From contig QXCW01000002.1 of the NCBI GenBank assembly GCA_003550275.1, positions 2,616,001 to 2,680,000 of the forward strand: a stretch of 64,000 bases of DNA, read 5' to 3'. The position numbers and the translations under genes were made by a program. Under the pieces are notes generated by a model. It was not told the DNA's origin and did no database searches. It was given only the letters and a program-made list of their open reading frames with translations. This document shows positions 1 through 15,307 of the stretch, piece after piece (the first letter of the stretch is position 1; the number at the start of each line of letters is the position of its first letter). Origin of the DNA: Flavobacteriaceae bacterium MAR_2010_72 (GTDB lineage: Bacteria; Bacteroidota; Bacteroidia; Flavobacteriales; Flavobacteriaceae).

Positions 1-1117
1 ACATTATTTTGTCTAAATATTCTGAAGTTTCTGTTCCTGGTCTAATACCTGGAATAAAACCACCACTTCGTTTTAAGTCATCTGCCATTTTATTTGTAGG
101 CACCGTAATAGCTGTATAGAAATACGTAAAGATGATAATCAATAATGCAAATACTAAATTATACCAGAATCCAAAAATATCTGAAAACTGAGCTTGCATC
201 CATTGACCAGCTTCACTTGTTCCAAATGATTTACCTATTAAACTTGGTACAAACATAATTGCTTGAGCAAAAATAATTGGCATTACACCCGATGCATTTA
301 ATTTCAAAGGTAAAAACTGTCTCGATCCAAATACATTCTTTTCATAACCTCCAGAAGCCGTACGTCTCGCATACTGAACAGCAATTTTTCTAACTGCCAT
401 CACAAGCATTACTGAAGCCATGATAATTACAAACCAAATAACAAGTTCTATCAAGATCATCATTAAACCTCCATTGCCTCCACCGTCTAATCTAGACGCC
501 GCATTTTGAATAAATGATTGAGGTAATGTAGCAATGATACCTACCATAATTAATAAGGAAATACCATTACCAATACCTTTATCAGTAATTTTCTCTCCTA
601 GCCACATTGCAAAAATACAACCAGTAACTAAAATTACAATTGATGAAAAATAGAATAAAGGTCCAGTTCCTAATAAAAAGGCTTGCTGTGGAATACCAAA
701 TACTGTTGGTAAACTTGCCAAATATCCTGGCGCTTGGAATAAACAAATAACGATAGTTAACCAACGTGTGATTTGCGTTATTTTCTTTTGTCCGCTAGCA
801 CCTTCTTTTTGTAATTTTTGCAAATAAGGAATTGCTATCCCCATTAATTGCACAACAATTGAAGCAGAAATGTATGGCATGATACCTAAAGCAAATACAG
901 ATGCATTAGCGAAAGCACCACCAGTAAACATATTAAGGATTCCCAAAATACCTTCATCTGTGCCTTCAACTAAACCACCTAATTGACTAGCATCAATACC
1001 AGGAAGTACAACTTGTGCACCAAAACGATAAACTAAAAGCAAACCAAGAGTAAGTATGATTCGGTCTTTTAGTTCCGTTATTTTCCAAACATTTTTTAAT
1101 GTATCTATAAATTTCAT
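1..1117 (-). CDS. secY: Protein translocase subunit SecY (partial, C-terminus off the window)
   Basis: SecY is the multi-spanning channel of the Sec translocon in the inner membrane; it moves unfolded preproteins out and inserts membrane proteins. The 372 codons present start MKFIDTLKNVWKITELKDRI and continue with the family's first membrane segment, a plug-like stretch and IMPYISASIVVQL, all typical of SecY. The usual length is about 440 residues, so roughly the last 70 lie beyond base 1. It is the last visible gene of the ribosomal protein unit, 12 bases after rplO, the usual place of secY at the end of the spc cluster. The identification is firm; only the C-terminus cannot be judged. Confidence 0.97.
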   Translation of the reverse strand, partial: MKFIDTLKNVWKITELKDRIILTLGLLLVYRFGAQVVLPGIDASQLGGLVEGTDEGILGILNMFTGGAFANASVFALGIMPYISASIVVQLMGIAIPYLQKLQKEGASGQKKITQITRWLTIVICLFQAPGYLASLPTVFGIPQQAFLLGTGPLFYFSSIVILVTGCIFAMWLGEKITDKGIGNGISLLIMVGIIATLPQSFIQNAASRLDGGGNGGLMMILIELVIWFVIIMASVMLVMAVRKIAVQYARRTASGGYEKNVFGSRQFLPLKLNASGVMPIIFAQAIMFVPSLIGKSFGTSEAGQWMQAQFSDIFGFWYNLVFALLIIIFTYFYTAITVPTNKMADDLKRSGGFIPGIRPGTETSEYLDKIM

Positions 1118-1129
1118 GCTTTAACAGTC

Positions 1130-1582
1130 TTATAAAGTTACAGCTTCTCCTCCTGCAGCTTCAATAGCAGCTTTTGCTGAAGCAGTAAATTTATGAGCAG
1201 ATACTTTTAATTTAGATTTTAGTTCTCCACGACCTAATATTTTTACTAGATCATTTTTTGTAGCTAAACGTAGCTCAACAAGAGTTTTAAAATCAACCGT
1301 ATCTTTTATTACTTTGTCATCAACCAATTGTTGTAAGGTATCAAGATTTACACCTTGGTATTCAACTCGGTTAACGTTGGTAAATCCAAACTTTGGAACA
1401 CGTCTTTGAAGTGGCATTTGTCCACCTTCAAAACCAACTTTTTTAGAATAACCTGAACGAGATTTAGCTCCTTTGTGTCCACGTGTTGCAGTACCACCTT
1501 TTCCAGAACCTTGTCCTCGACCGATTCGCTTACCTTGATTTTTAACTGACCCTTCAGCCGGTTTTAAATTACTTAAGTCCAT
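1130..1582 (-). CDS. rplO: 50S ribosomal protein L15 (uL15)
   Basis: Large-subunit protein that binds 23S rRNA and joins late in assembly. The N-terminus shows the family signature: a basic, glycine-rich tract KRIGRGQGSGKGGTATRG at about residues 18-35, followed by KGAKSRSG and a GG-Q-PLQRR-PK-GF segment. The C-terminal globular half follows. The length of 150 residues is normal. It lies between rpmD (12-base gap) and secY (12-base gap), the standard spc order, so expression is coupled to the rest of the unit. Confidence 0.98.
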   Translation of the reverse strand: MDLSNLKPAEGSVKNQGKRIGRGQGSGKGGTATRGHKGAKSRSGYSKKVGFEGGQMPLQRRVPKFGFTNVNRVEYQGVNLDTLQQLVDDKVIKDTVDFKTLVELRLATKNDLVKILGRGELKSKLKVSAHKFTASAKAAIEAAGGEAVTL

Positions 1583-1594
1583 TATTGTATCTTA

Positions 1595-1777
1595 TTATTT
1601 TGTTTCTTCTACAGAAACTAAATGTTTAACTTTATTCACCATACCAATAATATTTGGAGTGGCATCATGTTCTACAACCTGACCGATTTTTTTCAAACCC
1701 AAAGCTTCTAAAGTTAGTTTTTGGGTTTTTGTACGATTGATTGCACTTTTTGTCTTTGTTACTTTAATCTTTGCCAT
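1595..1777 (-). CDS. rpmD: 50S ribosomal protein L30 (uL30)
   Basis: Small large-subunit protein of the short bacterial type, 60 residues. It begins [20 protein letters not shown] and keeps the family's [29 protein letters not shown] core, in which a loop contacts 23S rRNA. Position between rpsE and rplO, with 12-base gaps on both sides, is the standard arrangement. Nothing unusual is visible. Confidence 0.97.
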
Positions 1778-1789
1778 CGTCCTTAATGA

Positions 1790-2314
1790 TTAACCGTTAA
1801 ATACTTTTTCAAGTGAAACACCTCTGTCTTTAGCTACAGCTTGTGCAGATCTCAATTGTAACAATGCATCAAAAGTTGCTTTTACCACATTATGAGGGTT
1901 AGATGAGCCTTGAGATTTTGACAATACATCATGAACACCAACTGCCTCTAACACTGTTCTCACAGCACCACCAGCAATAACACCGGTACCAGGAGCAGCA
2001 GGAATAATGTTGACACGTGCACCACCAAACTTACCTTTTTGCTCATGTGGAAGTGTTTTTTTGATAATTGGAATTCTTACCAAATTTTTCTTTGCATCTT
2101 CAACTGCTTTAGCAATTGCAGTGGCAACATCTTTAGATTTACCTAAACCGTGACCTACTACACCTGCCTCATCTCCAACGACTACTATAGCCGAAAAACC
2201 GAATGCTCTACCACCTTTTGTTACTTTGGTAACTCTTTGTACACCAACTAAACGATCTTTTAGATCTATTCCACTTGGTTTTACTAATTCTGCGTTTTTA
2301 TATTTTTGATACAT
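1790..2314 (-). CDS. rpsE: 30S ribosomal protein S5 (uS5)
   Basis: Small-subunit protein at the mRNA entry side, involved in decoding fidelity. The N-terminal double-stranded RNA-binding fold runs through [19 protein letters not shown] and [20 protein letters not shown] (about residues 38-77). The C-terminal domain contains [19 protein letters not shown] and the [16 protein letters not shown] motif. Length 174 is normal. It sits 6 bases after rplR and 12 before rpmD in the spc order. Confidence 0.98.
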
Positions 2315-2320
2315 AATGTC

Positions 2321-2677
2321 TTAAAATTTTAGTCCTCCTTCTCTAGCACCTTCTGCTAATGATTTAACTCTACCATGATATTGATATCCACCTCTATCGA
2401 ATGCGATGGCTTCTATACCTGATTTTAGTGCTTTTTCAGCAACAGACTTACCTACCAATGCAGCTATATCTGTTTTAGTACCTTTTGCAGAACTAATGTC
2501 TTTATCTCTTGAAGATGCAGAAGCCAAAGTTTTACCAGTTACATCATCTACAACTTGAGCATAAATTTCTTTATTACTTCTGAAGACAGCCAAACGTGGT
2601 CTAGATTCAGTTCCTGAAACTACTTTACGTATTCTGCTCTTAATTCTTAATCTTTTTTGATTCTTTGTCAATGCCAT
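2321..2677 (-). CDS. rplR: 50S ribosomal protein L18 (uL18)
   Basis: L18 binds 5S rRNA together with L5 and attaches it to the large subunit. The 118-residue protein has the basic N-terminus ([19 protein letters not shown]), then [20 protein letters not shown] and the C-terminal [26 protein letters not shown] signature read in segments. Standard length and position, 10 bases after rplF and 6 before rpsE. Confidence 0.98.
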
Positions 2678-2687
2678 AACTTAACTA

Positions 2688-3230
2688 TTAAGCTGATTTA
2701 CCTGCTTTTCTTCTTAATTCTTCACCAACAAACTTCACACCTTTTCCTTTGTAAGGTTCTGGTTTTCTGAAACCACGAATTTTCGCAGCTACTTGACCTA
2801 CCAATTGTTTGTCATGTGATGTTAATTTTACTATTGGATTTTTACCTTTTTCTGAAATGGTTTCCACTTTTACTTCTGGAGCCAAATCTAAAACGATATT
2901 ATGTGAAAATCCTAAAGCTAAATCTAATTTTTGTCCTTGGTTTGAAGCTCTATAACCTACTCCAACCAATTCTAATTGTTTGGTCCATCCTATAGAAACA
3001 CCTTTAATCATATTATTGATTAGTGATCTGTAAAGACCGTGTTTAGCTTTTTGTTCATTTTTGTCAGATGATCTTGCTACATGAACATTTCCATCTTCAA
3101 CTTTTATATCTATACCAGAATACTCTTGAGTTAGTTCACCTAATTTACCTTTTACAGTAATTACATTGTCTTTAACTTCTACTGTAACTCCATCTGGAAT
3201 TGCTACTGGGTTATTACCTATTCTTGACAT
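2688..3230 (-). CDS. rplF: 50S ribosomal protein L6 (uL6)
   Basis: L6 lies near the factor-binding site of the large subunit and consists of two repeated alpha/beta domains. Start MSRIGNNPVAIPDGV is typical, and the C-terminal signature PEPYKGKGVKFVGEELRRK is intact at about residues 157-175. Length 180 is normal. It follows rpsH by 18 bases and precedes rplR by 10. Confidence 0.98.
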   Translation of the reverse strand: MSRIGNNPVAIPDGVTVEVKDNVITVKGKLGELTQEYSGIDIKVEDGNVHVARSSDKNEQKAKHGLYRSLINNMIKGVSIGWTKQLELVGVGYRASNQGQKLDLALGFSHNIVLDLAPEVKVETISEKGKNPIVKLTSHDKQLVGQVAAKIRGFRKPEPYKGKGVKFVGEELRRKAGKSA

Positions 3231-3248
3231 GTTCTTTCTGTTTTTAAA

Positions 3249-3647
3249 TTAGTAAACGTAACATAATAGCTCACCACCAACGTTTTCTTTATGCGCTTGT
3301 TTTCCAGTTAACACCCCGTGAGATGTTGAAACAATTGCAATTCCAAGTCCGTTAAGGATTCTTGGCATTTCATTGGCACTTGCATATTTACGTAAACCTG
3401 GTTTACTTATTCTTTGAATTTTTTTGATGACAGGCTCTTTAGTCTCTTTATTGTACTTAAGGGCAATTTTAATTGTTCCTTGAACTGTTGAGTCATCAAA
3501 TTTATAACTTAAAATATAGCCTTGATCGAACAATATTTTAGTTATTTCCTTTTTAAGATTAGAAGCAGGAATTTCAACCACTCTGTGGTTAGCTTTCACT
3601 GCGTTTCTAACTCTTGTTAGATAATCTGCGATTGGATCTGTATACAT
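3249..3647 (-). CDS. rpsH: 30S ribosomal protein S8 (uS8)
   Basis: S8 is a primary 16S rRNA binder and, in enterobacteria, the translational repressor of the spc operon. The sequence starts MYTDPIADYLTRVRNAVKA and ends with the rRNA-binding TSHGVLTGKQAHKENVGGELLCYVY region. Length 132 is normal. The gene is preceded by an unusually long 67-base gap after rpsN that can form a bulged hairpin (separate entry), a possible site for control of this gene. Confidence 0.98.
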   Translation of the reverse strand: MYTDPIADYLTRVRNAVKANHRVVEIPASNLKKEITKILFDQGYILSYKFDDSTVQGTIKIALKYNKETKEPVIKKIQRISKPGLRKYASANEMPRILNGLGIAIVSTSHGVLTGKQAHKENVGGELLCYVY

Positions 3648-3665
3648 TTATATTAATTTGCGGTT

Positions 3666-3699
3666 TTGGTTTTCGAAAACATATCGAACTTCAAACCAA
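3666..3699 (-). promoter_or_regulatory. Bulged RNA hairpin in the rpsN-rpsH gap
   Basis: The 67-base gap between rpsN and rpsH can fold into a stem of 11 pairs. The outer arm is TTGGTT/AACCAA (3666-3671 with 3694-3699), the inner arm TTCGA/TCGAA (3672-3676 with 3684-3688), with a 5-base one-sided bulge (3689-3693) and a 7-base loop. The rpsH ATG follows 18 bases after the stem in the mRNA. This is one of only two long gaps inside the ribosomal unit. A regulatory role is inference; no known S8-site consensus was verified. Confidence 0.4.
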
Positions 3700-3714
3700 T
3701 TTATAATTCTTTGT

Positions 3715-3984
3715 TTACCAGCTTGCTTTTTTAACACCTGGTATTAATCCTTGATTTGCCATTTCACGTAACATTACACGCGAAATTCCAAACGTACGAA
3801 CATAACCACGAGGTCTTCCTGTTAGCTTACAACGATTGTGTAAACGTACAGGTGAAGCGTTTCTTGGTAATTTTTGTAATGCTTCGTAATCGCCAGCTTC
3901 TTTAAGAGCTTTACGCTTTTCAGCATACTTATCTACCATTTTTTGTCTTTTCACCTCACGGGCTTTCATTGATTCTTTAGCCAT
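3715..3984 (-). CDS. rpsN: 30S ribosomal protein S14 (uS14), zinc-independent form
   Basis: S14 is needed for assembly of the 30S head. At 89 residues this is the long form. It keeps [20 protein letters not shown] near the C-terminus but has a single cysteine there, not the paired CxxC motifs of the short zinc-binding type, so it should not depend on zinc. It lies 3 bases after rplE, in the normal L5-S14-S8 order. Confidence 0.97.
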
Positions 3985-3987
3985 ATC

Positions 3988-4539
3988 TTAATTCTTTTGA
4001 AAAGGTAACCCTAGTTCTGTTAATAACGATTGTGCTTCTTTATCTGTATCTGCAGATGTTACGAATGTAATATCCATACCAGATATTTTATTAATCTTGT
4101 CAATATCAATTTCAGGGAAAATGATTTGTTCTGTAATTCCTAAATTGTAATTACCTCTTCCGTCAAAACCTGTTGCCTTGATACCATTAAAATCTCTAAC
4201 TCGTGGTAAAGCTGAAGTCACCAAACGATCTAAAAACTCATACATTTGCTCACCTCTTAACGTAACACGCACACCAATTGGCATACCTTTACGTAATTTA
4301 AAAGTAGCAACGTCTTTTTTAGATAAGGTAGCTACAGCCTTTTGACCTGAAATTTTAGTTACTTCGTCAATAGCATGATCAATTAGTTTTTTATCTGCAA
4401 CTGCTGCACCAACACCTTTAGATATTACTATCTTTTTAAGTTTTGGAACTTGCATTACATTTTTATAACCAAATTCTTCTGTAAGAGCAGAAACTACTTT
4501 GTCCTTATACTCTTGTTTTAATCTTGGAACGTAAGCCAT
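3988..4539 (-). CDS. rplE: 50S ribosomal protein L5 (uL5)
   Basis: L5 binds 5S rRNA and touches the P-site tRNA through a flexible loop. The 183-residue sequence contains the family patterns [31 protein letters not shown] and [18 protein letters not shown]. Length is normal. It lies 2 bases after rplX and 3 before rpsN, which suggests translational coupling. Confidence 0.98.
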
Positions 4540-4541
4540 AA

Positions 4542-4865
4542 CTATATTACTTCATTAGATTTTTTAGAAAATCTCACTTTTTTATCACCTTCCATTTTGA
4601 ATCCTACTCGCGTAGTTTCTCCTTTACCAGTTAACAATGATAAATTGGAAATGTGTATAGGTGCTTCTTTCTCTACTATGCCACCTTGAGGATTTTGTGC
4701 GCTTGGTTTAGTGTGTTTTTTAACCACATTAACGCCCTCAACGATCGCTTTGTTCTTATCTTTAGATACTTTTAGTACTTTACCTTCAGAACCTTTGTGG
4801 TCTCCTGCAATTATTTGTACCGTATCTCCTGATTTTATTTTAAGCTTTGTCATTTTATTAGTCAT
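4542..4865 (-). CDS. rplX: 50S ribosomal protein L24 (uL24)
   Basis: L24 is an assembly initiator of the 50S subunit near the peptide exit tunnel. The 107-residue sequence has the KOW RNA-binding motif ([22 protein letters not shown], in segments) and the [15 protein letters not shown] signature. The chosen ATG overlaps the rplN stop codon in a TAATG arrangement, which implies termination-reinitiation coupling. A second in-frame ATG four codons downstream (MTKLKIK) is a possible alternative start and gives the more usual N-terminus. Confidence 0.97.
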
Positions 4866-5233
4866 TAAAGCACTTCAGGTGCTAATGATACAATTTTCAT
4901 GAATTGTTTATCACGAAGTTCTCTTGCAACAGGTCCAAATACACGTGTACCTCTCATTTCTCCTTGCGGATTTAAAAGTACGCAAGCGTTGTCGTCAAAT
5001 CTAATATAAGATCCGTCTGGACGTCTTACTTCTTTTACAGTACGAACAACAACAGCAGTAGAAACTGCTCCTTTTTTGATGTTCCCGTTAGGTGTTGCAT
5101 CTTTTACTGAAACAACAATCTTGTCTCCAATAGAAGCATATCTTCTACCAGTTCCTCCTAGAACACGAATGGTCAAAACCTCTTTTGCTCCAGTGTTGTC
5201 AGCTACCTTTAATCTTGATTCTTGCTGTACCAT
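4865..5233 (-). CDS. rplN: 50S ribosomal protein L14 (uL14)
   Basis: L14 lies at the subunit interface, where it forms a bridge to the 30S. The 122-residue length is universal for bacteria. Visible signatures are [37 protein letters not shown] and [20 protein letters not shown]. The stop codon shares one base with the rplX start, and the gene begins 2 bases after rpsQ. Confidence 0.98.
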
Positions 5234-5235
5234 AA

Positions 5236-5496
5236 TTACTTCGCTCTTTCAATTATTTCTACTAATCTCCAACATTTAGATTTACTTAAAGGTCGTGTTT
5301 CCATGATCTTTACTGTATCTCCAATGTTACAGTCATTTGTCTCGTCGTGCGCAACATATTTTTTTGTTTTTAACACGAACTTACCATACATAGGGTGCTT
5401 TACTTTTTTAACTTCAGAAACTACAATAGATTTCTGCATTTTGTTGCTAGTAACAATTCCTATACGTTCTTTTCTTAAATTTCTTGTTTCCATCAT
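5236..5496 (-). CDS. rpsQ: 30S ribosomal protein S17 (uS17)
   Basis: S17 is a primary 16S rRNA-binding protein with an OB fold. The sequence [20 protein letters not shown] and the downstream [10 protein letters not shown]...[19 protein letters not shown] pattern are characteristic. It begins with two methionines; the second may be the true start, one codon later. Length about 86 is normal. Gaps of 9 bases (to rpmC) and 2 bases (to rplN) fit the operon. Confidence 0.97.
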
Positions 5497-5505
5497 TATG
5501 CAGAA

Positions 5506-5697
5506 TTATTGTAATTCTCTTTTTGTTAATTCTGTTGCAATTCTAGCTACTGAACGACGTACGTTACGTAACTGAATTGGATTTTCTAAAGGCGATATTG
5601 CATGTGCCATTTTTAGGTCTGCATAGCTCTTTTTGGTCTCACCAAGTTTTTCTTGTAACTCAGCTATTGATAGCTGTTTAATTTCTGGTTGCTTCAT
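5506..5697 (-). CDS. rpmC: 50S ribosomal protein L29 (uL29)
   Basis: L29 is a small helical-hairpin protein beside the tunnel exit that helps form the docking site for trigger factor and SRP. At 63 residues it has the family's IKQLSIAELQEKLGETKKSY first helix and the NPIQLRNVRRSVARI-T second helix. It is placed 12 bases after rplP and 9 before rpsQ, the standard order. Confidence 0.97.
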   Translation of the reverse strand: MKQPEIKQLSIAELQEKLGETKKSYADLKMAHAISPLENPIQLRNVRRSVARIATELTKRELQ

Positions 5698-5709
5698 AAT
5701 ATTCTTTTA

Positions 5710-6129
5710 TTAAGCCTCGTAATCTCGAGCTATAAGGAACTTTGTTTTTACTGGTAGTTTTTGTGCTGCAAGACGCAACGCTTCTTTGGCTACTTCTAAT
5801 GGCACTCCACCTACTTCAAAAAGGATTCTTCCTGGTTTAACAACTGCTACCCAATATTCAACGGCACCTTTACCTTTACCCATACGTACTTCAAGAGGCT
5901 TTTTTGTGATAGGCTTATCTGGAAATATTTTAATCCAAAGTTGACCTTCTCTTTTCATATAACGGGTTGCGGCGATACGTGCTGCTTCAATTTGACGTGA
6001 TGTTAAGAAATTCGAATCGAGTGATTTTATACCAAACATTCCATTAGAAAGTTCATGACCTCTTCCGGAATTCCCTTTCATACGTCCTTTCTGGACTTTA
6101 CGAAATTTTGTTTTTTTCGGTTGTAACAT
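5710..6129 (-). CDS. rplP: 50S ribosomal protein L16 (uL16)
   Basis: L16 organizes the A-site region of the peptidyl transferase centre. The 139-residue sequence starts [20 protein letters not shown] and includes [20 protein letters not shown], a basic [20 protein letters not shown] loop and [23 protein letters not shown]. These are the L16 signatures at their expected positions. Length and place between rpsC and rpmC are normal. Confidence 0.98.
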
Positions 6130-6147
6130 TTTCTTTTACTTTAAAAA

Positions 6148-6873
6148 TTACTTTCTGCGACGAGATTTGTTCCCACCACGTCCTGCTCCGTCACCTGGTT
6201 TGCCACCTTGTTTTTTAGACAAACCAACTAATGGAGAAAGTTCTCTCTTACCATATACTTCACCTTTCATGATCCATACTTTAATACCCAATCTACCATA
6301 AGTAGTGTGAGCTTCAACTAAAGCATAATCAATATCGGCTCTAAATGTTGATAATGGAATTCTACCTTCTTTGTAATGCTCTGAACGTGCCATTTCTGCT
6401 CCGTTCAAACGACCACTGATTTGGATTTTAATTCCTTCAGCGTTCATACGCATTGCAGCCGCAATAGCCATTTTAATTGCACGTCTGTAAGAAATACGAT
6501 TCTCAATTTGACGGGCAACACTTGATGCTACTAGAAAAGCATCAACTTCTGGCCTCTTAATTTCGAAGATGTTCAATTGAACTTCCTTATCTGTAATCTT
6601 TTTAAGCTCTTCTTTTAACTTGTCTACCTCTTGACCACCTTTCCCGATAATAATACCAGGGCGAGCAGTAGTGATAGTAACGGTTACAAGTTTAAGCGTA
6701 CGCTCAATGATTACTCTAGACACACTTGCTTTAGATAAACGAGCGTGAACATATTTTCTAATCTTATCGTCTTCGGCAAGTTTATCTCCATAATCATTAC
6801 CTCCATACCAGTTAGACTCCCATCCTCTGATGATACCTAAACGATTTCCGATTGGATTTGTTTTTTGTCCCAT
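6148..6873 (-). CDS. rpsC: 30S ribosomal protein S3 (uS3)
   Basis: S3 forms part of the mRNA entry channel and has helicase-like activity on mRNA. The N-terminal KH domain contains GIIIGKGG at residues 73-80; the C-terminal domain carries [25 protein letters not shown] basic tail ([13 protein letters not shown]) ends the protein. At 241 residues it has the usual size. It lies 8 bases after rplV and 18 before rplP. Confidence 0.98.
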
Positions 6874-6881
6874 ATCTCTAT

Positions 6882-7289
6882 TTAAGCTTGTGTGTTATTT
6901 AATGAACCAATCACAACGGTTACGTGATTAGAACGTTTTCTAATTCGGTGTGCACGACCTTGAGGAGCTGGACGTAGCCTTTTTAACATGCTACCGCTAT
7001 CTACTCTGATCTCTTTTACAAATAAATCTGCGTCTTCAATACTTGCATCTTCATTTTTTGCTTGCCAGTTAGCTATTGCAGATAACAATAGTTTCTCTAA
7101 ACGGCGAGATGCTTCTTTTGAACTAAATTTAAGGATCTGAAGTGCTTTTTCAGCTTTTTCTCCTCGTACCAAATCTGCCATTAAACGCATTTTTCGTGGT
7201 GAGGTAGGACAATTGTTTAGCTTTGCAAATGCAACTTGCTTCTTGTCTTCTTTAATAGCGTCTGCCATTTGTTTTTTACGACTTCCCAT
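6882..7289 (-). CDS. rplV: 50S ribosomal protein L22 (uL22)
   Basis: L22 lines the peptide exit tunnel, where its beta-hairpin forms part of the constriction and the macrolide-resistance site. The core [20 protein letters not shown] and the hairpin region [30 protein letters not shown], read in segments, are intact. The N-terminus carries about 20 extra basic residues ([18 protein letters not shown]) before the core. Length is 135 residues. Confidence 0.97.
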
Positions 7290-7297
7290 AGCGCTTC

Positions 7298-7576
7298 TTA
7301 TTTTTTACCTTTATTCTTAGCACCTGCATGTCCTCTAAACGAACGTGTTGGTGAAAATTCTCCTAATTTGTGACCTACCATGTTTTCAGTTACATAAACT
7401 GGTACAAATTGACGACCATTGTGAACTGCTATTGTTTGACCAACAAAATCAGGAGTAATCATTGAGGCTCTAGACCAAGTTTTGATTACGGTTTTTTTGT
7501 TAGCTGCAACATTTTCAGCTACTTTTTTGTCTAATTTATAATGGATGTAAGGTCCTTTTTTTAATGAACGTGCCAT
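7298..7576 (-). CDS. rpsS: 30S ribosomal protein S19 (uS19)
   Basis: S19 forms a complex with S13 in the 30S head and contacts the large subunit. The 92-residue sequence has the hallmark start [15 protein letters not shown], then [31 protein letters not shown] and the C-terminal [15 protein letters not shown]. Length and position between rplB and rplV are standard. Confidence 0.98.
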
Positions 7577-7586
7577 ATTATCTCAA

Positions 7587-8414
7587 TTATTTCTTTCTAC
7601 GTTCTACAATATATTTATTACTCGCTTTAGTTTTAGAACGTGTTCTATAACCTTTAGCTGGAATACCATTTCTAGATCTTGGATGACCTCCTGAAGCACG
7701 ACCTTCACCACCACCCATTGGGTGATCGACTGGGTTCATAACTACTGGTCTAACTCTAGGTCTTCTTCCTAACCATCTACTTCTACCTGCTTTACCAGAT
7801 ACTAATAATTGATGATCTGAATTTGAAACGACTCCAATTGTAGCCATACAATTTGCAAGTATTAATCGTGTTTCACCTGAAGGTAATTTCACGGTTGCAA
7901 ACTTTCCATCTCTTGCCATTAATTGAGCGAATGCACCTGCACTACGTGCCATAACTGCACCTTGACCAGGACGTAATTCTATACAAGAAATAATAGTCCC
8001 CAATGGAATTTGGCTCAACGGCATTGCATTTCCAATTTCTGGAGCTACACCTTCTGTACCAGAAACTACATTTTGCCCAACTTGTAAACCATTTTGAGCA
8101 ATAATATAGGTTTTCTCGCCATCTTGGTAATTCAACAATGCGATAAATGCTGTTCTGTTTGGATCATATTCGATAGACTTAACTTCTGCTGGAATTCCAG
8201 TTTTGTTACGTTTGAAATCGATAATACGATACTTTTTCTTGTGACCACCACCAATATGGCGCATAGTCATTTTTCCTTGACTGTTTCTACCACCAGATCT
8301 TTTGTTCGGAGCAAGCAAGCTTTTCTCCGGCTTATCAGTAGTAATGGCGTCAAATCCATTAACTACTCTAAATCGCTGAGCTGATGTGATCGGTTTTAAT
8401 TTTCTTACTGACAT
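7587..8414 (-). CDS. rplB: 50S ribosomal protein L2 (uL2)
   Basis: L2 is one of the most conserved 50S proteins, needed for subunit association and for building the peptidyl transferase centre. The C-terminal signature [20 protein letters not shown], with the critical histidine-containing loop, is intact. N-terminal [23 protein letters not shown] is also typical. Length 275 is normal. Gaps of 10 bases separate it from rplW and rpsS. Confidence 0.99.
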
Positions 8415-8424
8415 CTTTGTCTAA

Positions 8425-8715
8425 TTACAGATTACTGTATAAATCAATAGTTTCACCTTCCGCCAGTTGTACAATTGCTTTTTTAACAGCATTTGTTTTA
8501 CCATGTTGAATACCAGTTTTTGTGAACTTAGTACTTCTATCTGGACGGACATTTATAGTACGAACTTTTTCAACAGAAACACCATAAGCAGCTTCTACTG
8601 CTTTTTTGATTTCTACCTTGTTCGCCTTTGTATTCACCTGAAAACTAAAGCAATTATTCAACTCACTATTGGTTGTTGCTTTTTCGGTGATGATAGGTTT
8701 AATTAAGATACTCAT
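8425..8715 (-). CDS. rplW: 50S ribosomal protein L23 (uL23)
   Basis: L23 sits at the tunnel exit and is the docking point for trigger factor and SRP. The 96-residue protein has SILIKPIITEKAT at the N-terminus, then FQVNTKANKVEIKKAVEAAYGV-VEKVRTINV, the family core. The extended internal loop is of the bacterial type. It is 7 bases after rplD and 10 before rplB. Confidence 0.97.
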   Translation of the reverse strand: MSILIKPIITEKATTNSELNNCFSFQVNTKANKVEIKKAVEAAYGVSVEKVRTINVRPDRSTKFTKTGIQHGKTNAVKKAIVQLAEGETIDLYSNL

Positions 8716-8722
8716 GGTTTCC

Positions 8723-9352
8723 TTATTTACTTAAATTCGTTTCAATTCCTTCTAAAGAACTCTCTAAAAGGACTAATTTATTTGCATTTAAAATTTTATA
8801 AGTGCTTAATTCTGAATTAGTTATAACTTCAGACCCTTCAAAATTTCGTGATGACAAATATACATTATTATTTGAAGCACCCAACACAAACAATGATTTT
8901 TTGTCTTGTATATCTAGTGCCTTTAAAATAGCAGTGAAATTTTTTGTTTTAGGAGCATCAAAATTGAAGTCTTCCAAAACAACAATGCTATTGTCACTTG
9001 CCTTCATTGTTAAGGCAGATTTACGTGCTAAACGCTTCAAGTTTTTATTCAATTTGAAGCTGTAATTTCTTGGTCTTGGACCAAACATACGTCCTCCACC
9101 TTTAAATACACCAGATTTAATAGAACCCGCACGTGCTGTACCTGTTCCTTTTTGTTTTTTAATCTTACGTGTACTTCCAGCAATTTCTGCTCTTTCTTTA
9201 GCCTTGTGTGTACCTTGACGTTGGTTAGCTAGATATTGTTTAACATCTAAATAAACTGCATGGTTATTAGGCTCTATCGCAAACACATCCTTAGAAAGCT
9301 CTGCTTTTCTACCTGTGTCTTTTCCGTTGATATCTAAAACTGCTACTTTCAT
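8723..9352 (-). CDS. rplD: 50S ribosomal protein L4 (uL4)
   Basis: L4 has a globular domain on the ribosome surface and a long loop reaching the exit tunnel; in enterobacteria it also represses the S10 operon. The loop region contains [28 protein letters not shown] (in segments), and the globular domain ends [19 protein letters not shown]. Length 209 is normal. The ATG overlaps the rplC stop in TAATG, implying coupling. A leader-like hairpin region upstream of rplC might respond to this protein (inference). Confidence 0.98.
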
Positions 9353-9969
9353 TATTTCTCAATGATTACATAAGAGTTTTTATGACCAGGAACACATCCT
9401 TTAACCACAAGTAAATTCTTTTCAGGAACTACTTTGTACACTCTTAAATTTTCAACTTTCACTCTTTCGCCACCCATTCTTCCGGCCATTTTCATTCCCT
9501 TGAATACTCTCGCAGGATATGAAGCTGCACCAATAGAACCTGGAGCTCTTAAACGGTTGTGCTGACCATGCGTTGCTTGACCAACTCCACCAAAACCATG
9601 ACGCTTTACAACCCCTTGGAATCCTTTTCCTTTAGATGTTCCTGCAATATCAACAAACTCACCTTCAATGAAGTGCTCTACTGTGATTGCATCACCTAAT
9701 TTGTACTTTTCTTCAAATCCTTGGAATTCAGCGACTTTAATTTTAACAGAAGTACCTGCTTTTTTGGCGTGACCCGTTTCAGCTTTTGTAGCACTTTTCT
9801 CTGTCTTGTCATCGAAACCAAGTTGAAGAGCATTATACCCGTCAACCTCTTCGGTTCTGACTTGGGTAACGATACATGGTCCAGCTTCGATTACTGTACA
9901 TGGAATGTTTTTTCCATTTTCATCGAAAATGCTGGTCATACCGATTTTTTTTCCTATTAACCCAGACAT
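9352..9969 (-). CDS. rplC: 50S ribosomal protein L3 (uL3)
   Basis: L3 is an early assembly protein whose loop reaches the peptidyl transferase centre. It starts [17 protein letters not shown] and carries [35 protein letters not shown] and [16 protein letters not shown], all family signatures. The 205-residue length is typical. The glutamine in the GQHNR-like motif is a known methylation site region in enterobacteria. It is preceded by a 144-base gap with two hairpins, unlike the tight spacing elsewhere in the unit. Confidence 0.98.
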
Positions 9970-9997
9970 ATTTATTAATTATTAATTATTACTTACT

Positions 9998-10107
9998 TAT
10001 TTAAAAAATTTCAGGGTCAAAATACGTTTCAACCCTGAATTGTATTTTTTCCCGTTTTTCCTTTGCTCGCAGCTCCGGACATGTCTTCAAGGATCTTAAG
10101 CCTTGAA
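9998..10107 (-). promoter_or_regulatory. Leader-like RNA with candidate attenuator between rpsJ and rplC
   Basis: In the mRNA (minus strand) this gap first forms a 7-pair hairpin, TTCAAGG/CCTTGAA with an 8-base loop (10086-10092 with 10101-10107). A GC-richer single-stranded stretch with GTCCGGAGCTGCGAGC follows. Then comes an 8-pair hairpin TTCAGGGT/ACCCTGAA with a 14-base loop (10010-10017 with 10032-10039), followed at once by A and six T, the shape of an intrinsic terminator. The rplC start lies about 40 bases further. A leader that attenuates the L3-L4 segment is inference from this layout. Confidence 0.55.
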
Positions 10108-10113
10108 ATTCAC

Positions 10114-10419
10114 TTACACTTTAATCTCAACCTCAACGCCACTTGGTAATTCAAGTTTCATCAACGCATCAATAGTTTTAGAAGATGAAGAGTAAATATC
10201 CAATAAACGCTTATAAGAGCTTAATTGAAATTGTTCTCTAGACTTCTTGTTTACGTGTGGTGAACGCAACACGGTGAAAATCTTTTTGTGGGTTGGTAAT
10301 GGAATTGGTCCCGTTACTACCGCACCTGTACTCTTTACAGTTTTTACAATCTTATCAGCAGATTTGTCCACCAAATTGTGATCGTAGGATTTTAATTTTA
10401 TTCTGATTTTTTGACTCAT
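10114..10419 (-). CDS. rpsJ: 30S ribosomal protein S10 (uS10)
   Basis: S10 is part of the 30S head and, as NusE, of transcription antitermination complexes. The 101-residue sequence has [55 protein letters not shown] in segments, and the C-terminal [11 protein letters not shown]. It lies 11 bases after fusA, so the str and S10 clusters form one unit here, without tuf between them. Confidence 0.98.
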
Positions 10420-10430
10420 TTTCTTAAAAT

Positions 10431-12557
10431 TTAAGCTTCAACGCCTTTAGCTGCTTTAATTACTTCTTCAGAAATGTTTGAAGGAGTTTCAGCATAATGT
10501 GAAAATTCCATTGTTGATGTTGCTCTACCTGAAGATAGTGTACGTAACGATGTTACATAACCAAACATTTCTGATAACGGCACGTGTGCCTTCACAACTT
10601 TTGAACCTGCTCTGTCACCCATGTCATTAACTTGACCACGACGACGATTAAGGTCTCCTACAATATCTCCCATGTTTTCTTCAGGAGTTAACACTTCTAA
10701 TTTCATGATAGGCTCCATGATAACAGCTTTTGCAGCTTTTGCAGCAGCTTTAAATCCTAGTTTTGCAGCCAATTCGAATGACAATTGATCAGAATCCACA
10801 TCATGGTAAGAACCATCCGTCAAAGTAACTTTCATTGCATCAACTTCATATCCTGCCAATGGACCATTAACCATAGCTTGCTTGAATCCTTTTTCAATAG
10901 AAGGGATAAATTCTTTAGGAACGTTACCACCTTTAATTTCAGAAACAAACTCTAAACCAGTTTTTCCTTCTTCAGCTGGGCTTAAAGTAAATACGATATC
11001 CGCAAACTTACCACGACCACCAGATTGTTTTTTGTAAACTTCTCTGTGTTGAGCAGTTCTTGTGATAGCCTCTTTGTACTCAACTTGTGGTTGACCTTGA
11101 TTGACTTCAACTTTAAACTCACGACGCAAACGGTCAACAATGATATCTAAGTGAAGCTCACCCATACCAGAAATAATCGTTTGTCCTGAAGCCTCATCTG
11201 TTCTAACAGTAAATGTTGGATCTTCTTCAGCTAATTTAGACAAAGCCATACCTAATTTATCAACATCGGCTTTAGTTTTAGGCTCAACCGCGATACCAAT
11301 TACTGGATCAGGGAAGTTCATACTTTCTAAAACAATTGGATGTTTCTCGTCAGATAATGTATCTCCTGTTTTAATGGATTTGAATCCAACAGCAGCTCCA
11401 ATATCTCCAGCTTCTATAAAATCAATTGCATTTTGCTTATTAGCATGCATTTGGTAGATACGCGAAATACGTTCTTTGTTACCAGAACGATTGTTCAATA
11501 CATAAGAACCTGCATCTAAACGACCAGAATATGCACGGAAGAATGCTAATCGACCTACGAAAGGATCAGTAGCAATTTTAAAGGCCAATGCAGAAAATGG
11601 TTCACTAACAGAAGGTTTTCTCTTTTCTTCTTTTTCAGTATCTGGATTAACACCTATAATCGCCTCTTTATCTAAAGGAGAAGGTAAATATCTACAAACT
11701 GCATCTAATAAGAATTGAACACCTTTGTTTTTGAATGAAGAACCACAAATCATTGGAATGATAGCCATATCCATAACCGCAGCTCTCAACGCAGCGTGGA
11801 TTTCATCTTCAGTGATAGAATCTTCATCCTCCATGAACTTCTCAAGTAAGTTCTCATCGTAAGTAGCAACTTCTTCTATCAATAAAGCTCTATATTGTTT
11901 AGCTTCAGCTTTTAATTCTTCAGGGATTTCGATTACATCGAATGTAGCTCCTAAAGTTTCATCATGCCAAACAATAGCTCTGTTTTTTACTAAATCAACA
12001 ACACCTTTAAAATCGATTTCATCACCAATAGGCAAAACTATCGGCACGGCATTAGAACCTAACATTTCCTTTACCTGTTTGTTAACTTCCATAAAATTAG
12101 CACCTTGACGGTCCATTTTATTTACGAAACCAATTCTTGGCACTTTATAGTTATCAGCTAATCTCCAGTTAGTTTCAGATTGAGGCTCAACACCATCAAC
12201 AGCACTAAATAAGAAGACCAATCCATCTAACACGCGTAACGAACGGTTTACTTCAACCGTAAAATCAACGTGACCAGGAGTATCAATAATATTAAAATGA
12301 TAACCATTAGAATCTGGCGTTGGCTCACCATTTAAACGAGGAAAAACCCACTCACAAGTTGTAGCAGCAGACGTAATTGTAATACCTCTTTCTTGCTCTT
12401 GCTCCATCCAGTCCATAGTCGCGGCTCCATCATGTACTTCACCAATTTTGTGAGATACACCTGTGTAGAAAAGGATACGTTCTGTTGTAGTTGTTTTTCC
12501 TGCATCAATATGAGCAGCAATACCTATATTTCTTGTATATTTTAAATCTCTTGCCAT
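10431..12557 (-). CDS. fusA: Translation elongation factor G
   Basis: EF-G is the GTPase that drives tRNA-mRNA translocation on the ribosome. The G domain shows AHIDAGKTT (residues 15-23), DTPGH (92-96) and NKMD (146-149). Domains II-V follow, with the domain [11 protein letters not shown] loop and the C-terminal [25 protein letters not shown] signature. Length 708 is normal. A short insertion (about residues 71-90) between switch II-flanking strands is seen in many Bacteroidota. The gene lies between rpsG and rpsJ with gaps of 6 and 11 bases; tufA does not follow as it does in enterobacteria. Confidence 0.99.
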
Positions 12558-12563
12558 CTTAAA

Positions 12564-13040
12564 TTAAAATCTAAAGTGTGAGAATGCTTTATTAGCTTCA
12601 GCCATTTTGTGAGTGTCCATACGCTTTTTAACAGCAGCACCTTCTTCTTTGGCAGCAGCCAAGATTTCAGCGGCTAATTTAGCTGGCATGGATTTTTCAT
12701 TTCTTTTACGTGAGTAACTAATTAACCATTTCATGGCTGTAGATACTTTACGATCTGGGCGGATTTGCATTGGGATTTGGAATGTTGCACCACCAACTCG
12801 ACGGCTACGTACTTCTACGTGAGGCATCACATTGGATAAGGCATCTTTCCACAATTCTAAAGCTGTTTTTTCTTCGTCAGTCTTTTTTGAATCTACAATG
12901 TCAATGGCATCATAGAATACTTTAAAAGCTACTGACTTCTTACCATCCCACATCATCATGTTCACAAAACGTGTTACTAACTGATCGTTAAAACGTGGAT
13001 CTGGTAAAAGCGGTCTTTTTTTCGCTGCTCTTTTTCTCAT
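12564..13040 (-). CDS. rpsG: 30S ribosomal protein S7 (uS7)
   Basis: S7 nucleates assembly of the 30S head and contacts E-site tRNA. The 158-residue sequence starts [20 protein letters not shown], with [17 protein letters not shown], the [17 protein letters not shown] core and the C-terminal helix ending KAFSHFRF. Length is normal. It follows rpsL by 22 bases and precedes fusA by 6. Confidence 0.98.
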
Positions 13041-13062
13041 GTCTTCTTCTTAAAGTTTTTAA

Positions 13063-13437
13063 TTACTTTTTAGGGCGTTTTGCACCATACTTAGATCTAC
13101 GTTGCGTTCTGCCTGCAACACCTGCTGTGTCTAAAGCACCACGAACGATGTGATATCTAACTCCTGGTAAATCTTTTACCCTTCCACCTCTAACCAATAC
13201 TATCGAGTGCTCTTGTAGATTATGTCCTTCTCCTGGAATGTAAGCGTTCACTTCATTACCATTAGTTAACCTTACCCTTGCAACTTTACGCATTGCTGAG
13301 TTAGGTTTTTTAGGTGTTGTAGTGTAAACACGCGTACAAACTCCACGACGTTGTGGACACGAATCTAAAGCAGCCGATTTACTCTTCTTGGTTATTTTGG
13401 CTCTTCCTTTTCGTACTAATTGTGAAATTGTTGGCAT
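13063..13437 (-). CDS. rpsL: 30S ribosomal protein S12 (uS12)
   Basis: S12 sits at the decoding centre and sets translational accuracy; streptomycin resistance maps to it. The 124-residue protein contains TTPKKPNSA, with Lys43, and [10 protein letters not shown], with Lys88; both lysines are those of streptomycin-sensitive bacteria. It is the first gene of the ribosomal unit. The consensus promoter and 5' hairpin (separate entries) lie 46 to 76 bases upstream of its ATG. Confidence 0.98.
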
Positions 13438-13463
13438 ATATTTCTATATATAATTTTGTTAAA

Positions 13464-13479
13464 CCCTCTCTTTAGAGGG
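13464..13479 (-). promoter_or_regulatory. Perfect hairpin at the predicted 5' end of the ribosomal mRNA
   Basis: In the mRNA sense the sequence is CCCTCT-AAAG-AGAGGG, a perfect 6-pair stem with a 4-base loop. It starts 3 bases after the -7 element of the rpsL promoter, so it would form at or within a few bases of the transcript's first nucleotide. Such a structure could protect the 5' end or act as a small leader; the function is inference. Confidence 0.6.
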
Positions 13480-13482
13480 CTG

Positions 13483-13513
13483 CAAAGGTAGAAATAAATA
13501 TCAATTTTTCAAA
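13483..13513 (-). promoter_or_regulatory. Consensus Bacteroidota promoter for the rpsL-secY unit
   Basis: Read on the minus strand it is TTTG, 19 bases, TACCTTTG. This is an exact fit to the -33 TTTG / -7 TAnnTTTG elements recognised by the primary sigma factor of Bacteroidota, with spacing in the usual 19-21 range. The -7 element ends 45 bases before the rpsL ATG. No second promoter this good was seen inside the ribosomal unit. Confidence 0.85.
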
Positions 13514-13612
13514 TGTAAAATGATTAATTTTAAAAAGAAGGATGATTTATTTTTTTAATACCATATTTTTAGCTGATTTTTTACGTTAACATTTGATATC
13601 TATTCAATTTTT

Positions 13613-15307
13613 ATGCTCAAACAGCTTTTTGGAATCATTGGAGTTTTATGTTTGTTATCTTCATCTCAAATGCGTTCTCAATCCTTGTTTTTGAAAGCAA
13701 AAGGGCAAACCGAAAATGAAACAAAAATTCTAGATTCTCTGGACTATGAAAGTCAGTTTGAAGATTATGAATCCTTGAACAAGGAAATTTATAGTTTAAA
13801 AACTAGATTAGAGAAAATAGGATTTCTGGAAAGCCAATTAGAAGCGATACTAAAAGAGAACGACAGTACGTTTCTTGCGTTATTCGACCTCGGAGAATAC
13901 TACAAGTTTATCACTATCTATTATAAAGGACTAATTGAAAAGAAGATTTTATCAAATATCGCTTCAGATGTTAATGATGATTTTTTTACGATAGGTTTTG
14001 AAAAACTGGAAGAGTCTTTAAACTATTTGAATCCTGTTCTGGCTGAAAAAGGCAATCCGTTTTTAAAAATCCAGATTGTTGATATCCAAAAAAATGAAGA
14101 TTTAACTTTAAGAGGCACTTTGACTATAAATAATCAAAATGATATTCAGCGAACCATTGATGAAATTGTGGTTAAAGGTTATGAGAAGTTCCCAACATCA
14201 TTTATCAAACATTACTTAAAACTTAAACCTAAGCAATTACTCAATATCAAAACGATTAATAGGAAAACATCTGATCTTGACAACTTGGCATTTGCAAACC
14301 AGATAAGGGAACCCGAACTGCTTTTTACCCAAGATTCCACTTCCTTATATATATATGTTGAAAAAGCAAACAGCAACACTTTTGATGGTTTTTTAGGTTT
14401 TGGCACAAACGACCAAACAGGAGCTATTGAATTTGATGGGTACTTAAATTTAAATCTCATAAATAACCTAAATTATGGAGAGTCTCTAAAGCTATTATAC
14501 AAAAGTGACGAAAACGAACAAAGAACCTTTGATATTAAGGTTAGTTTACCTTATGTTTTTGGTTCACCCCTTGGCACCGAATTTAAATTGAATATATTCA
14601 GGAAAGACTCCACTTTTATTACAACATCTCAATCTGCGAAGCTTATTTATCAATTTAATTCTAGAAATTCATTATCTGCAGGAATTAACTCAATCATATC
14701 CAATAATTTATTGGAGAATTCAACATTCTTATTAAAGGATTACAATTCAACATTTTACATTCTTAATTATTTACATCAAAAAAATCAAAAATTTGATGCC
14801 TTGTTTCCAACAAATTTTCTCTTTGACATAAGTGTGGGAACTGGAAAGCGAACGGTAGAAAATATCACAGAACCTCAAACAAGTTTACATCTGGATACCT
14901 TTAAAATTTTTAATTTAAACATAAAAAACAGCCTTTACTTTAGGTTAAATGGCGGTTCTTTAATATCTGATGACTACTTGGAGAATGAACTTTTGCGTTT
15001 TGGCGGAATCAACTCCATTAGAGGTTTTGAAGAGAACAGTTTGAATGCAAATTTATTTACAGTATTAAATTCAGAATATAGGTATCGAGTGAGCAATAAC
15101 CTCTACATCCATTCTGTTTTGGACATCGCCTATTCCGAAAACCAAATACTTGACTCAAAAAGCAAACTTTTAGGCCTTGGTTTTGGTTTTGGGCTACTTT
15201 CTAAAGCAGGACTTTTCAAACTAAATTACAGCTCTGGAAGTTCTGAAAATCAGCAGTTTAGATTTTCTAATTCAAAAATCCATATTAGCTTATCCTCAAC
15301 GTTTTAA
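13613..15307 (+). CDS. Omp85/BamA-TamA-like outer membrane barrel protein
   Basis: Predicted exported protein of 564 residues. A hydrophobic signal peptide (about residues 4-22, ending near MRSQS) is followed by a helical segment, then a POTRA-like part (around residues 150-215) and a C-terminal beta-barrel. The barrel shows FGGINSIRGFEENSLNANLF, which carries the R-G-F motif of the Omp85 L6 loop, and the chain ends in phenylalanine, as barrel substrates of the BAM machinery do. It is much shorter than BamA (about 800-900 residues) and has too few POTRA domains for it, so it is more likely a TamA-like or other surface antigen D15 protein. Its substrate is unknown. It is divergent from rpsL. 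Confidence 0.8.
   Translation: MLKQLFGIIGVLCLLSSSQMRSQSLFLKAKGQTENETKILDSLDYESQFEDYESLNKEIYSLKTRLEKIGFLESQLEAILKENDSTFLALFDLGEYYKFITIYYKGLIEKKILSNIASDVNDDFFTIGFEKLEESLNYLNPVLAEKGNPFLKIQIVDIQKNEDLTLRGTLTINNQNDIQRTIDEIVVKGYEKFPTSFIKHYLKLKPKQLLNIKTINRKTSDLDNLAFANQIREPELLFTQDSTSLYIYVEKANSNTFDGFLGFGTNDQTGAIEFDGYLNLNLINNLNYGESLKLLYKSDENEQRTFDIKVSLPYVFGSPLGTEFKLNIFRKDSTFITTSQSAKLIYQFNSRNSLSAGINSIISNNLLENSTFLLKDYNSTFYILNYLHQKNQKFDALFPTNFLFDISVGTGKRTVENITEPQTSLHLDTFKIFNLNIKNSLYFRLNGGSLISDDYLENELLRFGGINSIRGFEENSLNANLFTVLNSEYRYRVSNNLYIHSVLDIAYSENQILDSKSKLLGLGFGFGLLSKAGLFKLNYSSGSSENQQFRFSNSKIHISLSSTF

Follow-up and report, generated by a model that had tools for sequence, protein, structure and literature searches.

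In the window analysed here (the whole stretch of 64,000 nucleotides), the genes for S12, S7, EF-G, S10, L3 and L4 follow one another on the minus strand, so that the str and S10 clusters form one fused operon, and it may be asked whether the genes from rplC onward can still be controlled separately from those in front of them. To our knowledge, the control of the S10-spc operon outside the Gammaproteobacteria is largely open. The question centres on the gap of 144 bases between rpsJ and rplC (9970-10113), which a sequence-only reading had described as a leader-like region with an attenuator hairpin; the Pfam domains agree with the gene identities that it gave, and its length for the gap is exact.

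The gap folds at -29.1 kcal/mol, as against -20.9 kcal/mol in shuffled sequence (z -2.4; 3 of 200 shuffles equal it), and its terminator (10039-10010), in which 13 pairs are followed by A and six T, has the highest pair count of the terminator-like sites within 1000-13700. The intrinsic-terminator form proposed earlier therefore stands, although the stem comprises nine core pairs, or 13 with its U-rich extension, rather than eight. Likewise, the first hairpin is present, with a stem of eight pairs (10108-10085) instead of the seven that had been counted. The GC-richer stretch CCGGAGCTGCGAGC between them, taken to be single-stranded, belongs to a conserved hairpin, P1 (10079-10059), of which it makes up one half, and an alternative hairpin that overlaps the terminator, S1 (10048-10042 with 10025-10019), was absent from the earlier description. 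The features are collected in Table 1.

Table 1. The rpsJ-rplC gap and its flanking genes in the order of transcription, in coordinates of the window.
Feature	Position	Strand	Basis or remark
rpsJ (S10)	10114..10419	-	gene ahead of the element (Pfam)
P0 hairpin, UUUCAAGG-loop-CCUUGAAG	10085..10108	-	immediately precedes the conserved core
Conserved core, ACAUGUCC-[hairpin]-GGAAAAACGG	10052..10084	-	core model R2 match, 48.4 bits, E 9.8e-10
P1 hairpin within the core	10059..10079	-	UCC/GGA base; covariation
AAAACGG, near-invariant, single-stranded, between P1 and S1	10052..10058	-	alignments
S1a, antiterminator 5' arm, AAAAUAC	10042..10048	-	pairing-specificity permutations
S2a, terminator 5' arm, UUCAGGGUU	10031..10039	-	doubles as S1 loop region
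S1b, antiterminator 3' arm, GUAUUUU	10019..10025	-	in the terminator loop, abutting the terminator 3' arm
S2b, terminator 3' arm, GACCCUGAA	10010..10018	-	covariation and terminator scan
Intrinsic-terminator U-run	10003..10008	-	sequence
rplC (L3)	9352..9969	-	first gene past the element (Pfam)
rplD (L4)	8723-9352	-	next after rplC (Pfam)

The rpsJ-rplC gaps of relatives were taken from 80 contigs, and 41 copies of the element were aligned. With a covariance model (R1), the element was detected in 314 of 397 sampled Flavobacteriaceae genomes and in 195 of 237 genera (285 of 330 among the high-quality genomes), normally as one copy per genome. The copy in the MAR_2010_72 genome scores E = 1.5e-18 against the covariance model, and this value together with the recurrence in the family excludes chance. 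Apparent second copies were rejected, as they are weak matches (E about 1e-4) that resemble the terminator but have neither the core nor rpsJ and rplC beside them. The element stands between rpsJ and rplC, directly upstream of the latter, in each of the 111 loci read, a placement resting on about 100 copies read out of the 314 found. All strong matches of an order-wide search fall within the Flavobacteriaceae; six weak matches elsewhere in the order were set aside, the two examined (L170 and L171) having neither the core nor the flanking genes. A core-only model (R2) returned nine members of the Flavobacteriaceae and nothing else across 395 genomes of the class, and its match in the gap is the sole real one in the window. 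About one-fifth of the sampled family genomes, including the listed Flavobacterium genomes, manage without the element, which is thus not indispensable; no copy was found among the listed genomes of one genus taken as Flavobacterium from its named loci, nor in named Flavobacterium contigs.

Comparison of the 111 loci gave a common anatomy, in which a hairpin P0 is followed by P1 between near-invariant flanks, by the A-U-rich stem S1 and by the GC-rich terminator stem S2 with its U-run. In the 41 aligned copies the segment from ACAUG to AAAACGG is near-invariant except for the P1 hairpin, and the consensus reads ACAUG-[UCC..GGA]-AAAACGG, the bracket being P1. Above its UCC/GGA base, P1 is interrupted by a purine-rich internal loop of 3x3 (NRA/RAR) or else, in several clades, continues as an unbroken helix of eight pairs; six of the eight pairs have changed on both sides, and the covariation score of 0.223, compared with 0.115 in shuffled alignments, was reached by none of 500 shuffles. 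The single-stranded AAAACGG is likely to form part of a putative recognition site. P0 ends 0-5 nt 5' of ACAUGU, and its sequence is unrelated between species while the hairpin is usually retained: the best hairpin averages -5.4 kcal/mol versus -1.2 kcal/mol in shuffles (107 loci), with p<=0.05 in 62%. Among loci with a short gap, P0 is significant (p<=0.05) in one of ten, and in a few of them the best hairpin takes in the end of rpsJ; some loci with their own promoter have no P0.

In S1, the A-rich strand 3' of AAAACGG pairs with the U-rich loop of S2, and both arms differ from one species to another, as in AAAAUAC/GUAUUUU, AAAGAAUA/UAUUCUUU, AAAACAAAU/AUUUGUUUU and GUAAAACAC/GUGUUUUAC. The pairing sum is -489 with the own partners and -315 +/- 15 when partners are swapped, with none of 20000 permutations as good, and own partners are also best in a non-redundant set of 19 members (none of 50000 permutations); relatedness partly remains in this test, and the independent compensatory replacements carry most weight. 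In S2, both sides have changed in seven of ten pairs and 96% of the cells are paired, a result matched in 0 of 500 shuffles, and the frequent G-U pairs in this stem fit only the minus strand. Nearly all relatives have a U-run after S2; some recorded stems are as short as 4-5 pairs and a weak U-run is seen in a few copies, so that some copies may not terminate strongly. The compensatory changes in P1 and S2 and the specific pairing of S1 provide the covariation on which the sequence-only reading had made its proposal depend, and the leader-like region with an attenuator hairpin is borne out by its conservation directly upstream of rplC, by these changes and by the terminator and antiterminator forms. 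That the gap holds a conserved structured RNA can be regarded as good as settled.

Further sequences occur between the terminator and rplC in some relatives. Short palindromic repeats of the GACAAUUCGCGAGUUGUC type are inserted there in Winogradskyella and Gelidibacter (L004, L007, L017), and relatives of Polaribacter and Tenacibaculum (L042, L062, L069, L034) have a conserved GAAAC..GUUUC followed by AGACGCGCUGGAUA..UAUCGUCU.

The two stems S1 and S2 should exclude each other because they share sequence and no linker is available for both full stems, the spacing between S1b and S2b being 0-4 nt and mostly 0. Their coexistence as an H-type pseudoknot was rejected as sterically implausible, since a linker of about 0 nt would have to span seven pairs. 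When transcripts ending at S1b are folded, S1 forms in 91% of the sequences, and when complete transcripts are folded, S2 forms in 82%; S2 is the more stable stem in 98%. By sequence and folding, the expression platform thus consists of a terminator and an exclusive antiterminator, and its form strongly supports, at the level of sequence, the view that the element acts as a transcription attenuator. The terminator cannot be absolute, as rplC and many essential ribosomal genes lie behind it inside the operon.

We propose that the S1 antiterminator would form first and that the stronger S2, with the U-run next to it, would then re-use the S1 loop. If the free r-protein is scarce, S1 would form as its 3' arm emerges and the polymerase would read through. 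An excess of an r-protein encoded downstream would instead lead to binding at P1-AAAACGG, by which the adjacent A-rich 5' arm would be kept from S1, and with this arm withheld S2 could form and transcription would stop. Autogenous control by an r-protein is our best inference for the function of the element. As to the ligand, we can only guess at L4 and then L3, L4 being named first because its gene is the second behind the element and because it regulates the S10 operon in E. coli. Altogether, we consider it probable that the element is a cis-acting transcription attenuator and an r-protein leader of a new family in the fused str-S10 operon, controlling rplC onward separately from S12-S7-EF-G-S10. 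It represents a concrete candidate leader with a defined antiterminator, terminator and recognition core, common to most of a large marine family. If the proposal is correct, the str-S10 fusion is matched by an internal control point ahead of L3-L4, and leaders for the S10 operon arose more than once.

The position of promoters bears on other readings of the locus. Ahead of rpsL lies a Bacteroidetes-type promoter (13513-13483, minus strand; TTTG, 19 nt, TACCTTTG) that is likely to be the start of the fused operon, and no recognisable promoter was found behind the terminator in the window. Wherever element-bearing loci have a credible -7 element (TAnnTTTG) in the rpsJ-rplC gap, it is located upstream of the element, so that the element seems to be transcribed together with rplC; eight apparent downstream matches lie 56-59 nt past the core start, inside S1b itself. 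A plain 3' terminator closing an operon at rpsJ, rplC being transcribed from its own promoter, would account for the terminator form and for the promoter-like sites that Flavobacterium relatives have in this gap, but we find it highly improbable, as the loci with the motif have no TAnnTTTG between element and rplC save the match within S1b, own promoters precede the element where they are found, and the conserved core and S1 would be left unexplained. The element persists behind the gap's own promoter in Polaribacter, Tenacibaculum and Maribacter, and in some relatives a separate promoter stands in its place; element-free loci with a gap >60 nt have a promoter-like site in 14 of about 18 cases, a carrier of a divergent copy (L153) being counted as element-free. 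In four Flavobacterium loci (L046, L049, L050, L054), gaps of about 400 nt without the element share a conserved stretch after a promoter (ACUUUUGCACUCCCUGUUUGGAAAUUUCUGUUAUUUUCAAAUUGAAGGGAAUUUUAGUAAUUAAUAAUUAAUAUUU), which is perhaps another leader.

These arrangements also bear on the possibility that the structure is a fixed, unregulated partial terminator, which sets the ratio of str plus S10 to the rest of the operon and whose strength is merely tuned by S1. Such a device would fit with the lack of a known ligand, with the difference in strength between copies and with the replacement of the element by a separate promoter in some relatives. It would, however, need no near-invariant core of 33 nt 5' of it with a compensatorily kept P1, and it would have no rpsJ ratio to set in the three genera in which the element lies past a promoter of its own gap, and for these reasons we regard it as unlikely. 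In other bacteria S10 (NusE) acts in transcription antitermination, and this role, as well as the location of the element directly behind rpsJ, would suit a switch that answers to S10 as an antitermination signal and not to a repressor r-protein; yet no boxA-like sequence was seen in the core by eye, and where promoters are separate the element goes with rplC rather than rpsJ, which makes this version very unlikely. It is distinctly unlikely, too, that the RNA represents a new family of switches other than an ordinary r-protein repressor site, one that reads, for example, free S10/NusE or some other signal of assembly or elongation; if it did, a non-repressor switch would decide whether the polymerase passes beyond the str-S10 block to the genes of the large subunit and would so balance the halves of the fused superoperon. 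The invariance of AUGUC in the alignments might suggest a leader peptide, starting at this AUG, that couples translation to attenuation. The reading frame, however, stops after two codons in 17 of 45 sequences and extends over 4-49 codons in the others, and the length of P1 varies by one base and thereby shifts the frame; with neither frame nor stop conserved, a leader peptide at AUGUC was rejected and coupling of this kind is barely credible.

The rpsJ-rplC element is not the only structured gap in this ribosomal gene cluster. A second conserved RNA occupies the rpsN-rpsH gap (3648-3714, minus strand), with the form UGGU..AGGUUY-hairpin-RAA-AACC..ACCG some 10-20 nt before the start of rpsH (S8). 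Six of its 12 predicted pairs show compensatory changes among 13 sequences, it has no Rfam match, and it occurs in 12 of 16 relatives checked, the others (L186, L187, L191, L197) having gaps of 18-24 nt instead. We consider it a candidate translational S8 leader.

With regard to known RNAs, a search of the rpsJ-rplC gap with the covariance models of Rfam 15 (4227 families) gave no match at E<=5 and thus no known ribosomal leader, and six divergent relatives yielded four scattered matches, each under its gathering score and to families other than ribosomal leaders. Conserved and covarying but without a match in Rfam, the element agrees with the suggestion of an undescribed ribosomal leader made in the sequence-only reading. 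The other suggestion made there, a relocated L4-type leader, fails as a statement of homology, since neither R1 nor R2 gives a significant match in the S10 region of E. coli MG1655, including its S10 leader, and the shared stretch is at chance level. Attenuation of the E. coli S10 operon by L4 is NusA-dependent and uses a leader of about 170 nt before rpsJ. Both systems place an attenuator hairpin in the S10 cluster upstream of rplC-rplD, and in both the order is hairpin, A-rich single-stranded segment containing AACGG, attenuator; in contrast, the E. coli leader is upstream of rpsJ and has another structure, whereas the flavobacterial element is downstream of rpsJ. We know of no S1-type antiterminator in the E. 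coli leader. Its AAGAACGGUUA resembles AAAAACGGUAA at a comparable place, but the shared AAnAACGGU has p 0.05-0.16, which is at chance level, and the likeness is only a lead. When the core was compared with the 16S and 23S rRNA of E. coli, the best match was a gapped ACAUG..AACGG at E 0.4, which is not significant, so that this comparison gives no clue to the ligand from rRNA mimicry.

Regulation of the S10 operon by L4 in E. coli is covered in a 2024 review (PMC10931766). In the literature we found no leader for the S10-spc operon in Bacteroidota, and a text search, with subscription journals mostly outside it, brought up no further leader for rplC, L3 or L4. The papers searched likewise gave no mapped transcript ends for the Flavobacteriaceae. 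The ribosomal-leader survey of Eckert et al. (2020; PMC7247131) lists none upstream of rplC in Flavobacteria, although it predicts S4, S15 and S16 r-leaders in this same lineage, in other operons. The same survey predicts an L4 r-leader that is likewise upstream of rplC, in front of rplC-rplD-rplW-rplB; it is archaeal, reported in Archaeoglobi only and rated borderline. The closest mechanism is that of the B. subtilis rplJL leader, in which L10(L12)4 acts on a switch of terminator, antiterminator and anti-antiterminator (PMC10931766). It concerns other genes and another protein, and no Rfam leader family matches the flavobacterial gap, but there, as we propose here, the binding of an r-protein picks between antiterminator and terminator.
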